Positions 28,866 to 61,618 of a DNA stretch of 64,000 nt are shown piece after piece. A program made the translations under genes and the position numbers. This DNA comes from Azonexus hydrophilus (GTDB lineage Bacteria > Pseudomonadota > Gammaproteobacteria > Burkholderiales > Rhodocyclaceae), in the NCBI RefSeq assembly GCF_001956855.1, contig NZ_MTHD01000001.1:806001-870000 (forward strand), read 5' to 3'. Under the pieces are notes generated by a model. That model saw nothing but the letters and a program-made list of their open reading frames with translations. It was not told the DNA's origin and ran no database searches. Each line of letters starts with the position of its first letter. Positions within the stretch are counted from its first letter, which is position 1.

Positions 28866-29745
28866 TTTTCGGGTTGATCAGGCGGCTGGTCTGCGTCGCT
28901 TGCTTGGAGGCTCGGGTTTGCAGGTCATCACTTTCGTTGCTGGCTGCGAGGGGGTCGGGCGAAGTGTGACTGTGGCCAATCTTGGCGTGGCACTGGCGCG
29001 CCTGGGCAAGGAAGTGCTGATCATCGACGAGCATGTTCCTGGTGACGATATCGCTGCATCGTTCGGTCTGCAATCGGCGCATGACCTGCTGAACGTGGTT
29101 CAACGTGAGTTGCTCCTGACGCAGGTGCTGTTGCGCCCGATGAACGGGCTTTCCATCTTGCCTGCGGCCAAAGCCGCCCGGAAACTCGGTCGCCTGTCAC
29201 TGCATCAACAACAGACGCTGGTTGATGCGATGTCTGGCCTGGAGCGTTCGATCGATGTCATCCTGGTTGATGCCAGCATGGCACACCCAAACGGGTTTTC
29301 ACCATTCGGCCTGGTGTCCCAGGAGACGGTAGTGGTCTTGTCCGGAAATAGTGCATCCATAACCGAAGCCTACGCACTGATTAAAAAAGTTAGTCACGCT
29401 TTTTCGCGCCGCCATTTCCGGATCCTGGTTAACAAGGTGCGCAGCCAGGCTGATGCGCGATCGATCTACGAAAATATCGCCCAAGTGGCGACCCAGCGTG
29501 GTGTAGCGACGCTCGATTATGCGGGGGCTATTCCTTTGGACGAATCATTGCGGCTATCCAGCCAGTTATGCCGCCCTGTCCTTTTTCAGGCGCCGGATTC
29601 ACCATCGGCGACAGCGTTCCGTGACCTTGCCGCCGATCTGCAGTACTGGCAGCAGAGTCAAGGCGAGCAAGGCGGGGTCGAACATTTCCTCCAGCAACTG
29701 CTACACTTGAGCCAACGTATAACACCGAACGTATTAAGAGCCTGA
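28858..29745 (+). CDS. fleN: Flagellar number regulator FleN/FlhG (MinD-like) with altered P-loop
   Basis: 295-aa MinD/ParA-type protein that limits flagellar number, acting with FlhF and on FleQ-type activators. Homology is visible in the order of strands: SVTVANLGVALARLGKEVLIIDE, then a Walker B-like IDVILVDAS. The deviant Walker A normally reads KGGxGKT, but here it is GCEGVGRS: both P-loop lysine positions are replaced. The GTG at 28858 (8-bp overlap with flhF) follows GGGAGGCCGTC; an upstream in-frame ATG at 28828 is less likely. It overlaps fliA (TGATG). Confidence 0.9.
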   Translation: MADFRVDQAAGLRRLLGGSGLQVITFVAGCEGVGRSVTVANLGVALARLGKEVLIIDEHVPGDDIAASFGLQSAHDLLNVVQRELLLTQVLLRPMNGLSILPAAKAARKLGRLSLHQQQTLVDAMSGLERSIDVILVDASMAHPNGFSPFGLVSQETVVVLSGNSASITEAYALIKKVSHAFSRRHFRILVNKVRSQADARSIYENIAQVATQRGVATLDYAGAIPLDESLRLSSQLCRPVLFQAPDSPSATAFRDLAADLQYWQQSQGEQGGVEHFLQQLLHLSQRITPNVLRA

Positions 29746-30500
29746 TGTACACTGCAGCGGGGCAGCCAGACCGGAATGAGTTGGTTCAGCGCTTCGTGCC
29801 GCTGGTGAAGCGTATCGCCTATCACCTGATGGCGCGGTTGCCAGCTAATGTCCAGTTTGATGATCTGGTTCAGAATGGCATGCTTGGCCTGCTCGATGCT
29901 ATAGACCGTTTCGAGGAAGGCTTTGGTGCGCAGTTTGAAACCTATGCGACGCAGCGCGTGCGTGGTGCGATGCTTGATGGTCTGCGGGCCAATGACTGGC
30001 TGCCACGCAACATGCGGCGAGAGTTACGGCGGATAGAGCAGGCCATCAATCAGCTGGAACATGCACACGGCCGTGCTCCTTCTGAACAGGAACTGGCCGA
30101 TGCTCTCGGGATGACTCTGACTGACTACCAGAAGGTGCTTCAGGACGCGCGAGGTCATCAACTGGTGTACTACGAAGATTTCGGCGGTGATGATGACGAG
30201 GACTTTCTTTCGCGTCATTTCACGGATTCTGAAGGCGATCCAGCGGGAATACTAGAAGACAAGGATATCCGCGAAAATCTGGTTCGTGCGATTTCCCGCT
30301 TGCCGGAGCGCGAGAAGCTGATGATGGCGCTTTATTACGAGCAGGATCTCAATTTGCGGGAAATCGGCGAGGTCATGGGGGTCACCGAGTCCCGTGTCTG
30401 CCAGTTGCACAGTCAGGCGATTGCCCGTCTGCGAGGGCAGCTGGTCGGCGATGTCCAGGTCGCCGTCAGCAAGCGCCGCAAGGAGAAGACGCTTGGATAA
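29745..30500 (+). CDS. fliA: Flagellar sigma factor FliA (sigma-28)
   Basis: 251-aa sigma-28 that transcribes late flagellar genes. Region 2 (LVKRIAYHLMARLPANVQFDD and QFETYATQRVRGAMLDGLR), region 3 (RELRRIEQAINQLE) and region 4 with a helix-turn-helix (LNLREIGEVMGVTESRVCQL) are all intact. The ATG overlaps the fleN stop. Its anti-sigma factor FlgM is encoded nearby on the opposite strand and is frameshifted as printed. Confidence 0.97.
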   Translation: MYTAAGQPDRNELVQRFVPLVKRIAYHLMARLPANVQFDDLVQNGMLGLLDAIDRFEEGFGAQFETYATQRVRGAMLDGLRANDWLPRNMRRELRRIEQAINQLEHAHGRAPSEQELADALGMTLTDYQKVLQDARGHQLVYYEDFGGDDDEDFLSRHFTDSEGDPAGILEDKDIRENLVRAISRLPEREKLMMALYYEQDLNLREIGEVMGVTESRVCQLHSQAIARLRGQLVGDVQVAVSKRRKEKTLG

Positions 30501-32055: not shown

Positions 32056-32520
32056 TCAGGCGGAGTCGACGATGCGGCTGCCCGTGCCGCTTGCCGCCTG
32101 CCCATTGCTGCCGTAGAGCGCGGCTTCCTTCTGGCGTTGAGTCAGGATGTCTATCGCTTCGGAGGTCTTGCTCAGATGCATCGCGATCAATTCGCCGTTC
32201 ATTTCGTGCAATTGCCGTGCTTCCCTGGCGAGATCAAGAATCTCTTCCCACAGCAAGCGAGCGGATTTTTCTGCAGGGTGGCGTAGCAACCAAGCTTTCA
32301 TTTCTGCCTTGCCGTTGCCGGTAGAGCTTGCCGCAATGAATGCGCCTCTTGCCGCTTCTGCGGTGTTGAGGGTGTCAATCAACTCAAGCTTGGTCTGGTT
32401 CAAGACGCTCAAGGTCTCGGCAAGACCCTCAACGAGAGCAGATTGCTCTTCGCGAAGGAGATCCAGAAAACGGGTTACCAAACCCTTTTCTGTCTCGAGT
32501 AACTGCTGCAGTTCCGACAT
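32056..32520 (-). CDS. flgN: Flagellar hook-filament junction chaperone FlgN
   Basis: 154-aa helical export chaperone for FlgK and FlgL. It is mostly charged amphipathic helix (MSELQQLLETEKGLVTRFLD and LLREEQSALVEG), typical of FlgN, with an Ala/Gly-rich tail. Its ATG overlaps the flgM stop (TGATG), so flgM and flgN are translationally coupled. Assignment depends on this flgA-flgM-flgN context together with length and helical character; sequence conservation in this family is low. Confidence 0.88.
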   Translation of the reverse strand: MSELQQLLETEKGLVTRFLDLLREEQSALVEGLAETLSVLNQTKLELIDTLNTAEAARGAFIAASSTGNGKAEMKAWLLRHPAEKSARLLWEEILDLAREARQLHEMNGELIAMHLSKTSEAIDILTQRQKEAALYGSNGQAASGTGSRIVDSA

Positions 32521-32797
32521 CAGGCCTTGCGCTGGCTGTTGACCAAATCTCGGGCAGTTTCGATCAGCCCGTCTGCGATCGATTCCGGATTGATCTTGAA
32601 GCGGCCCTGAGCAATCGCATCCTTGATTTCCTGGATTTTTGTAGCGTTGACCGGTGGTTTTTCGGTGCCTTGGGTCGGGGCGGCCGGCGCGCTCAGACTG
32701 ACTGCTTCAGCGGTGCGAGCAGCATTGTCGGCAGTTTTCTGGGGGGGGGGGTGGTACGCAGTGGCGGCGACTTGAAGGTCGAAGTGTCGATTTTCAT
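32520..32797 (-). pseudogene. flgM: Anti-sigma-28 factor FlgM, frameshifted at an 11-C tract
   Basis: The N-terminus MKIDTSTFK starts at ATG 32797. The conserved FliA-binding C-terminus (IKDAIAQGRFKINPESIADG) ends at TGA 32520-32522 but lies in another frame. The span is 278 nt, one short of a whole number of codons. The break falls at an 11-C run (32741-32751, read as C on this strand); with 12 Cs a single 92-aa FlgM would be read. As printed, translation from the ATG stops after 34 residues, and no start codon exists in the second frame before the conserved region. A sequencing or assembly error and true phase variation both remain possible. Confidence 0.9.
32741..32751. repeat. Homopolymer tract, 11 C on the minus strand, inside flgM
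   Basis: This is the longest homopolymer I noticed in the window. It encodes Thr-Pro-Pro-Pro about 16 codons into flgM. Tracts of this length are prone to slipped-strand mispairing and to sequencing error. One more C restores the reading frame. Confidence 0.95.
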
Positions 32798-32821: not shown

Positions 32822-32848
32822 GTTGTTCGATATTACGGTCACTGCGGC
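32822..32848 (-). promoter_or_regulatory. Candidate sigma-28 (FliA) promoter for flgM-flgN
   Basis: Minus-strand TAAAGTTT (complement of 32841-32848) exactly matches the sigma-28 -35 consensus. After 11 bp comes ACCGTAAT (complement of 32822-32829), a partial match to GCCGATAA. The site ends 25 bp before the flgM start. FliA-driven flgM is the standard feedback design in other bacteria. Confidence 0.55.
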
Positions 32849-32860
32849 TGAAACTTTAGC

Positions 32861-33529
32861 TCAATTTGCCAAAAGAATGGAGCCATCCTGTTGTGCAATG
32901 CCACTCAAGGTTTTTCCTGAGAGCATGCGGGCACGAGCGAGTTCACCTTCCGCTGCATTGTTCATTGCCTTGCCATCAGCTTTGACGAGAAAGCCCGGGC
33001 CGCGGGAGACAACCTTGACATTTTGCCCTTGGCGAATAACCAGAGGGGCCTGCAGTTGATCAGCACGCAATGCTTGTCCGGCGCCAACTGAGTTGCGCAG
33101 GGTCTTGCCGATAGCGCGGTCGATACTGATAACTGTGCCTGTGGGTAGTGTGGACAGGTCGCCGGAGCTGATAACCAGGTCGCTTGCCCGCAACGTTTTG
33201 CCCGCCAGCAACGAGCGACTGGTGCGTACGTAGTCGCTGATGATCGAAATGCGTACGGGAACCAGGATATTCCAGTTGGCTGATTCTTGGCAGCGTACCC
33301 CGATGTGGGTGCGTCCAATAGTGCGGGTGTTGGGGGGGGTATAAGTTTCCAGGGTGGCGCATGGAATCAGACGGCTGGTATCGATCGGGTCTGCAGCAAT
33401 GCGGATTTCTCCCGGCTGTCCCTCGACCAGTTGCCGGGCGTGCCGTTCTGCGGCTTCGATGACCGGATTCGCTTCGCTCGCCCAAAGGGCTGGGGCTGCG
33501 AGAAGAAGGAGAATGGTGCGAACTATCAT
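32861..33529 (-). CDS. flgA: Flagellar P-ring assembly chaperone FlgA
   Basis: 222-aa periplasmic chaperone for P-ring formation. An N-terminal signal peptide (MIVRTILLLLAAPALWASEA) precedes SAF-type beta-clip domains; LAGKTLRASDLVIS and GQALRADQLQAPLVIRQGQNV are typical FlgA segments. The longer frame reaches 33580, but the ATG at 33529 places the signal peptide correctly. An 8-base homopolymer lies in the gene and the frame is intact. It is divergent from flgB and 63 bp upstream of flgM. Confidence 0.94.
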   Translation of the reverse strand: MIVRTILLLLAAPALWASEANPVIEAAERHARQLVEGQPGEIRIAADPIDTSRLIPCATLETYTPPNTRTIGRTHIGVRCQESANWNILVPVRISIISDYVRTSRSLLAGKTLRASDLVISSGDLSTLPTGTVISIDRAIGKTLRNSVGAGQALRADQLQAPLVIRQGQNVKVVSRGPGFLVKADGKAMNNAAEGELARARMLSGKTLSGIAQQDGSILLAN

Positions 33530-33574
33530 GGCGTGATTGTGCCCCAGCTTTGTTAATGCGCGAAACCAAAATCC

Positions 33575-33590
33575 TGGCATGAACCATGCT
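33575..33590 (+). promoter_or_regulatory. Sigma-54 promoter for the flgB operon
   Basis: TGGCATGAACCATGCT matches the sigma-54 pattern TGGCAC-N5-TTGCT, with exact GG-N10-GC spacing (GG 33576-33577, GC 33588-33589). It sits 35 bp before the flgB ATG. The FleR protein in this window carries the GAFTGA motif needed to activate sigma-54. The site also contains a small palindrome, GCATG-AAC-CATGC. Confidence 0.75.
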
Positions 33591-59810: not shown

Positions 59811-60888
59811 GATCAATCAGGATTTGTCGAACATTCAGTCCCGCTGCTGCCAATTGATTCTGCAGCGCCGTCACACCCTCACGCAGACGACCTTCTCCTT
59901 CGCTTGTGTTGGAGAGAATGCGGATTCCCAGTTCGCCGCCTGGCTGCAAGTGCAAACGGGCATCAATGCCGCCAAGTTGCGGGAGTGTCAGTTTCAGGCG
60001 TGTGTGCCAGCGGGCTGTAGCCTCTTCACCGACGAGATTGCGATCTTCAGGATTTTCGCCGATTTCCCACCACATTTTCTGTCCCGGCCAGATCTGGCCT
60101 TGCCAGGCAAAGTTCTGGCTGGCCAGTCCGTCAAGTTGCTGCTGGACAATGGGGGCAATGTCACGCGGAATGCCACCCTGCGGCTGGAATTGTTGCGGTG
60201 AGGCAGCCTCGCGGCTGACGACCTGCTGGTTGACGCCGCTCTTGTCGGTTTGTCCTGGACTTCCCAGGCCAGATGCTTCGGCTACCAAGCGCCCCTGGGG
60301 CTCCTGGCGCAATTGTTCGGTGGGTAGTTGTCCGGCGACCCAGCGTGCCTGATGCGCTTCGTAAAACATGCCGCTCTGTGTCAATGCCTGTTTGAGCATT
60401 GGCGCCAGCTGGGCCCCATCTCGAGGCATTGTCGCTACCAGAGCCTGATTGCCGTTCAGCGGCGCTGCCGGTGCGCGCTTGCCCTCTCCGTCAATGCCTT
60501 GCATCAGGTCGCCGATCAGCTTTCCGGCCGAACTCAGGGAGGTTGGTACTGACGGATCGCCGGACTTTGCCGGCGTATCTGCGCGGTTGGCGACAAACGC
60601 CAAGGTCAGCTTGCCGTCGGACTCGGCAACTTCCAGTTCCAGGCTGTCACCCGGTTTGGCAGAAAAAGGCAGTGCAAGGGTGACATCCCGCTGGCCAACC
60701 GTTGCGCGATAACTGCCATTCGGCAGCATGGCCTGAATTTCTGCAAAAATTCGCTGGCCAGGAACAAGATTGCTGAGTATGTCAGCAATGCGTTGTGCTG
60801 GTGCTACTGGTTGGGTCTGCTGAGCCTGGGCGCTGGATGAATCGACAAGGGTTGTGCGCAGCGTACTGGCAACATCCGGCGGAATCAT
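59788..60888 (-). CDS. FliK-like protein (hook-length control C-terminal-like domain)
   Basis: 366-aa protein. The N-terminal half contains a beta-rich segment (LPNGSYRATVGQRDVTLALP) and the C-terminal half has FliK-like sequence (KLTLPQLGGIDARLHLQPGG, then EGRLREGVTALQNQLAAAGL). It overlaps the FlhB C-domain homologue downstream and the FliT-like gene upstream (ATGA). A bona fide FliK is already encoded in the fli operon, so this is a second ruler-like or switch-like protein. Function not established. Confidence 0.75.
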   Translation of the reverse strand: MIPPDVASTLRTTLVDSSSAQAQQTQPVAPAQRIADILSNLVPGQRIFAEIQAMLPNGSYRATVGQRDVTLALPFSAKPGDSLELEVAESDGKLTLAFVANRADTPAKSGDPSVPTSLSSAGKLIGDLMQGIDGEGKRAPAAPLNGNQALVATMPRDGAQLAPMLKQALTQSGMFYEAHQARWVAGQLPTEQLRQEPQGRLVAEASGLGSPGQTDKSGVNQQVVSREAASPQQFQPQGGIPRDIAPIVQQQLDGLASQNFAWQGQIWPGQKMWWEIGENPEDRNLVGEEATARWHTRLKLTLPQLGGIDARLHLQPGGELGIRILSNTSEGEGRLREGVTALQNQLAAAGLNVRQILIDHDPGTES

Positions 60889-61223
60889 GTCAAGCGGTGG
60901 TCGTCTGGCGAAGGAGCTGGCTTCTTCGCAAAGGCGTCGATCAACGGCTTGATTTGCTCAAGCCGGGCCAAGCAGGATTTGGCGTTGAGTTCCAGTTGGC
61001 GCTGTATCTCACCCAGTTGTTTGATGCGCAATGGGGTATTCATGGAGCCTTTATCGATGGTTTTCAGCCATTCCAGTCTTTCGACAAGCTCGAACCCGAT
61101 ATCGGGTATCGTCTCCCAGTTTCCCTTCTTGACGACATCCGTAAGTTGCGACAACAAGCGCTCAACTTGAAGCAGTCTGTCAAGCACGTCCGGTTCTTGC
61201 GGGGGGGGGCGATCTCCGCTCAT
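60885..61223 (-). CDS. fliT: FliT-like flagellar chaperone
   Basis: 112-aa helical protein. It follows fliS with a 4-bp ATGA overlap in the flaG-fliD-fliS order, the usual place for FliT, the FliD chaperone. Helices with WETIPDIGFELVERLEWLKT and IQRQLELNAKSCLARLEQIK fit such a role. A run of nine Cs encodes Arg-Pro-Pro-Pro near the N-terminus (plus-strand G run 61201-61209), and the frame is intact. Assignment is mainly by context. Confidence 0.65.
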   Translation of the reverse strand: MSGDRPPPQEPDVLDRLLQVERLLSQLTDVVKKGNWETIPDIGFELVERLEWLKTIDKGSMNTPLRIKQLGEIQRQLELNAKSCLARLEQIKPLIDAFAKKPAPSPDDHRLT

Positions 61224-61618
61224 TTGGAATTATTAGGCGCTTGGCGGATTTGTTTCCAAGCTTCGGATATTTCGCCAAGCAATTTTTGCACTTCCGCAAC
61301 CGCTTCCGAGTCGAGGTGAATGTTGGCATGAATGAGCCGCGAGGCCATGTATCCGTAAAGCGCCCGCAGGTTTTGCGCCAACTCCCCGCCTTGCTCCACA
61401 TCCAGGCTGGATGAGAGGCCGTCGAGAATAATCTCGATGGCTTTGTTCAGTGAATGGGATTTGCCTTCGTAATCTTTCTCGAGGATTTGGGCTTGTGCTT
61501 TGACTAAGGCACTCTCCGCGCCGTCAAACAGAAGAGTGATCAGGCGATGAGGGTCTGCTCCTCTAACATCTGATTCGATTCCGATTTGCTGATAGCTGGC
61601 GATAGGATTTGAAAACAT
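61220..61618 (-). CDS. fliS: Flagellin export chaperone FliS
   Basis: 132-aa chaperone that keeps flagellin unpolymerised in the cytoplasm. The N-terminal YQQ motif (IASYQQIGIESDVRGADPHR) and LITLLFDGAESAL are signature FliS segments; LDGLSSSLDVEQGGELAQNL follows. It lies between fliD and the FliT-like gene, 25 bp after fliD. Confidence 0.97.
   Translation of the reverse strand: MFSNPIASYQQIGIESDVRGADPHRLITLLFDGAESALVKAQAQILEKDYEGKSHSLNKAIEIILDGLSSSLDVEQGGELAQNLRALYGYMASRLIHANIHLDSEAVAEVQKLLGEISEAWKQIRQAPNNSK

Follow-up and report, generated by a model that had tools for sequence, protein, structure and literature searches.

Slippage at homopolymers makes genes phase-variable in several bacteria, and flagellar control supplies precedents: flgR, flgS, flhA and fliP in the relevant passage of PMC3930126, and swrA in a passage of PMC2831843. 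In Campylobacter jejuni the genes concerned, flgR and flgS, are flagellar regulators whose frame is shifted at homopolymers (for flgR, PMC3930126), while in Helicobacter pylori the length of a short homopolymer sets the frame of the flagellar gene fliP (same passage). The swarming gene swrA of Bacillus subtilis is given as an example of homopolymer frame shifts in the passage of PMC2831843. The flgM gene described here likewise changes frame at a homopolymer, a run of 11 C. An earlier reading of the locus, made from its letters alone (hereafter the sequence-only reading), stated that homopolymer slippage makes genes phase-variable elsewhere, and proposed the same as a possibility for flgM.

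The window analysed, 64,000 nucleotides of Azonexus hydrophilus DNA, is part of contig C9 of a 3.6-Mb genome, which consists of 17 contigs and is given as 100% complete. Judging by gene names assigned from general knowledge, the window presumably holds a large cluster of flagellar and chemotaxis genes. The flgM gene is read from the minus strand and sits between flgA and flgN, with a putative FliA-type promoter (Table 1).

Table 1. Features of the flgM locus, in window coordinates.
Feature	Position	Strand	Basis or remark
11-C homopolymer, site of the frame change in flgM	32741..32751	-	Window letters
flgM N-terminal frame, 34 aa, ATG to early stop	32693..32797	-	Residues beyond the C run are out of frame
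flgM C-terminal half, 72 aa and stop, FliA-binding PF04316 region	32520..32738	-	Pfam match
flgN, open, 154 aa, ATG overlapping the flgM stop	32056..32520	-	ORF; presumed name, from position and general knowledge
flgA, open, 239 aa, with in-frame 8-C run	32861..33580	-	ORF; Pfam ChapFlgA_N
fliA (sigma-28), open, 251 aa, predicted FlgM target	29745..30500	+	Family presumed from the sequence by general knowledge
Putative FliA (sigma-28) promoter TAAAGTTT-N11-ACCGTAAT, upstream of flgM	32832..32858	-	Pattern match

The run appears as 11 G on the plus strand and as 11 C in the coding strand of flgM. From the ATG (at 32797) to the TGA (32520-32522) the gene spans 278 nt, i.e. 3 x 92 + 2, so the start and stop codons lie in different frames. 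The frame opened by the ATG, whose first residues agree with the FlgM of relatives, ends at an early stop (32693-32695) after 34 aa, and this N-terminal piece matched no Pfam family. The 72-aa piece in the other frame (32523-32738) matches PF04316 at 2e-11 (44.3 bits, cut-off 25). The FliA-binding C-terminal region of FlgM is present and a single open frame from start to stop is absent, the break lying at the C run; that the frame change falls there is not chance. The anatomy drawn in the sequence-only reading is borne out by these results: flgM is split between two frames, they part at the 11-base homopolymer, and the full length it expected is right, 92 aa being more frequent among relatives (21/61) than any other size.

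An internal start of the ATG, GTG or TTG kind is ruled out for the C-terminal half, as the first such codon in its frame stands only 8 codons before the end. Likewise, no second flgM was found: a PF04316 search of the whole genome (E up to 10) pointed to one place only.

Apart from the break, the gene looks well preserved. Over 72 aa its C-terminal half is 97% identical to P0001, an intact 92-aa FlgM known here from its 2,112-base contig alone, with letters that differ from those of the window (of the 197 proteins found, 120 of them listed, 17 were inspected). P0001 agrees with flgM as far as the linker, where the two differ. The promoter is assigned by the sigma-28 consensus. The window carries the strict pattern, TAAAGTTT-N11-ACCGTAAT, as do 55 of 79 upstream 90-mers of relatives, against 98 of 20,000 random 90-mers; a loose pattern is found in 77 of 79 against 251 of 20,000. 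The 79 are the 90 bases ahead of distinct genes of relatives that begin with ATGAA, other genera included, and the random 90-mers were drawn from the fetched loci, which contain those promoters too. An intact FliA-type promoter, flgN and flgA, together with the identity of the C-terminal half, argue that the lesion is recent, and 97% identity to an intact FlgM suggests that decay has barely begun. This identity and the kept promoter pattern indicate that selection very probably acted on flgM until recently.

Two further runs in the window can be mentioned. A run of 8 C in flgA (33332-33339) is in frame and spanned by the ChapFlgA_N domain; a search of the genome contigs with FlgA returned 13 loci, at identities of at most 44%. 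A 9-base run (61201-61209) lies close to the beginning of a 114-aa ORF (60888-61229), which has no Pfam match and stands beside a fliS-like ORF; from its position and look we take it to be fliT-like.

Among the other genomes of the genus, PF04316 is present in 61 of 75 (28/35 and 33/40), and all 61 FlgM matches start with MK and reach the PF04316 region in one frame. Sixty of the 61 are 90-96 aa long. The exception, locus L033 (G007:C176, a 4.2-kb contig), encodes a 221-aa fusion of FlgM and FlgN that lacks the end of FlgM.

The sequence-only reading had proposed comparing the tract length in relatives. The longest C/G run in their flgM genes is 7 (2 genomes), 6 (5), 5 (24), 4 (18) or less than 4 (12), and the 11-base tract occurs in none of the 61. 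The combination of the FlgM start ATGAARATYGAY, a gap of 10-40 bases and 8 C is found in one of the 76 genus genomes, namely the genome under study, and in 0/75 others, by a scan that misses flgM genes with another start or with a run further downstream. A switch conserved across the genus is ruled out by these two results. As the comparison included no same-species strain (among 72 of the 75 other genomes, the nearest loci share 71-72% DNA identity across a query of 2.5 kb), the relatives' lack of the run excludes only such a switch. By the standard that the sequence-only reading had set for itself, relatives without the homopolymer point to a sequencing or assembly error.

We are evenly poised between acceptance and doubt of the explanation that we prefer, namely that flgM has suffered a recent one-base (modulo 3) slippage indel in its 11-C run, which is slippage-prone and unselected. 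Its main rival is an error of sequencing or assembly: the consensus would give a wrong length for the run, and the organism would carry an unbroken flgM. We regard this error as a tentative but serious possibility. The genome holds 16 G/C runs of at least 8 bases (13 of 8 and one each of 9, 10 and 11); that of flgM is the longest, and therefore the most open to miscalling. The frameshift is also a singleton among the 62 same-genus flgM genes (own plus 61) in a gene whose remainder looks functional by its C-terminal identity, PF04316 match and promoter pattern, and singleton frameshifts validated by BLASTP are expected, according to the part of PMC3711429 that deals with them, to be sequencing errors and not genuine indels. 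On the other hand, no gene was seen to be broken at any of the 15 other G/C runs of 8-10 bases: 14 of them are contained in open frames, and the one at L093 has no ORF of at least 90 aa within 60 bases. Seven of the 15 are spanned by an in-frame Pfam domain (in genes for a glutamate dehydrogenase type, a TonB receptor, an exo/endonuclease, an M15 peptidase, a WecG transferase, a NuoG-like protein with 10 G, and FlgA), and seven fall in open frames of 114-740 aa with no Pfam domain across the run, among which L083 and L094 match nothing in Pfam and L077 and L088 were left out of the Pfam search. Nor was another frame break left after inspection when the non-overlapping ORFs of two relatives were compared with 162 kb of the contig, about 102 kb of it being covered. 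In that comparison 171 of 202 ORFs had hits, 31 were dropped for a better hit on the other strand, 132 were unbroken and 8 were flagged; these 8 frame changes among the 140 ORFs kept were judged by eye from the DNA to be gene boundaries or antisense. The flgM gene itself was left unflagged, so the ORF comparison overlooks frame breaks close to where short genes begin or end. A cruder stop-to-stop comparison (1,432 segments, 1,050 with hits) gave 50 apparent breaks, many of them from antisense shadow frames, and the five break places re-read individually, all outside the window, turned out to be gene boundaries (e.g. a sucC-sucD-like junction). With the other long runs open and the ORF comparison free of breaks, general homopolymer miscalling is unsupported and gross miscalling of this assembly unlikely; the longest run may have been miscounted. 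Of the two, we somewhat favour a real slippage indel over a miscall.

Slippage could also serve the cell as an evolved phase switch, in which slipped-strand mispairing at the C run would turn flgM on and off and give two states of the late flagellar regulon. The anatomy would fit, since a regulatory gene carries the long run in its 5' portion and the frame is off, the precedents named at the outset are of this kind, and 67 of the 76 genus genomes, own included, contain a run of at least 10 G/C. However, of the features that mark slipped-strand loci, the repeat tract in the coding region is present and its retention across relatives is not, a single tract state (one consensus) was seen, and no test spoke for selection. 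Synonymous-codon shuffling of 128 ORFs (149,766 nt of this contig, 200 shuffles) produced on average 0.045 runs of 11 (9 in 200), which scales to about 1 per 3.6 Mb; the 11-base run itself is mildly unusual, about one per genome being expected from synonymous codon choice. Runs of at least 8 are not in excess either: the genome has 16 where scaling of the shuffle predicts about 60, and the sample has 2 against a shuffled mean of 2.8, so that no lack of them is visible there. Moreover, of 20 loci with runs of at least 11 from 12 other genus genomes, chosen among those listed, 13 have the run within an open frame encoding a protein that Pfam recognises, though not necessarily by a domain reaching across the run, which argues that such runs are usually in frame; the remaining 7 were judged from their ORFs, plus a Pfam search of one neighbour (L166), and may include split genes. 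Thus the tract and the off-frame anatomy of the phase-variable flgM envisaged by the sequence-only reading hold, whereas the switch itself gained no positive support, the relatives' runs ending at 7. We consider an evolved switch improbable, and find it equally hard to believe that flgM is a young contingency locus, in which 11-C slippage would yield FlgM-on and FlgM-off cells in a clonal population and so switch the strength and timing of the whole FliA regulon. Among the open-licence papers listed, no title or abstract start reported homopolymer switching of flgM, and the passages on flgM in PMC12754014 and PMC12492005 contain no flgM frameshift. Finally, some full-length FlgM might be made by recoding on the C run, through transcriptional slippage or -1 ribosomal frameshifting, and the C-terminal half is indeed in the -1 frame. 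In favour, too, polymerase or ribosome can slip on a homopolymer, as the relevant part of PMC3711429 describes for A/T runs. Against recoding, the known bacterial examples are mostly on A/T runs. No marked RNA structure accompanies the site (MFE z = -0.41 for 138 nt, with 58 of 200 shuffles folding at least equally well and pseudoknots outside the test), and the frame transition is not conserved, since 61/61 relatives encode FlgM in one frame. Recoding is, in our judgement, very improbable.

Other long runs of the genus deserve a brief description. Runs of 13 C in L161 (G017; 1501-1513) and of 12 G in L162 (G087; 1499-1510) both fall in the N-terminal part of S49-peptidase ORFs, possibly a recurrent slippage site. 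Very long G/C runs were seen in G030:C2:438299-438368, as two blocks of 39 and at least 30 bases, and a 27-base G/C run in L153 (G088; 1506-1532). A 10-G pattern matched genome G032 at 147 overlapping positions, more than in any other of the 76 genus genomes, perhaps owing to a few very long runs or to a sequencing artefact.

If the slippage indel that we favour is correct, ordinary codon drift together with slippage would have produced the 11-C run, in the Pro/Thr-rich linker that joins the N-terminal end of FlgM to its FliA-binding domain, and the change in length would be real in the sequenced DNA. FlgM holds FliA until FlgM is exported. Cells with the frameshift would have no working FlgM, FliA would be unrestrained, and the late flagellar genes would be expressed earlier and more strongly. 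The C run would remain slippery, so its length could change again, yet it would be unselected as a switch. In Salmonella, loss of FlgM brings earlier and higher class 3 expression in simulations that cite experiments (part of PMC5809477), and in P. syringae the heat repression of fliC requires flgM, while complementing the deletion lowers fliC (passage of PMC3602303). In addition, the early stop leaves about 170 untranslated bases ahead of flgN, so FlgN translation might be reduced.

Were the run both real and unstable, a single slip would alter when, and how much of, every late flagellar product is made, an effect broader than that of slips in single structural genes. Were it an error, an annotation without FlgM would be a reason to check the reads.

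Set beside the described systems, this locus shares the homopolymer and differs in what is documented about it. The runs of C. jejuni flgR are of A/T and reversible switching has been shown there, whereas flgM has a C run and a single consensus; furthermore, loss of flgR or flgS turns flagella off, while loss of FlgM should raise late gene expression. For H. pylori fliP, a basal body gene, reversible length variation is shown, and swrA of B. subtilis is called phase variable (passage of PMC2831843); for flgM there is again one consensus. Singleton frameshifts of the GeneTack survey, as treated in part of PMC3711429, likewise consist of a break in one genome whose relatives are in frame. Unlike these, the flgM break sits at a long C run, which makes its recurrence more plausible than that of a random indel.
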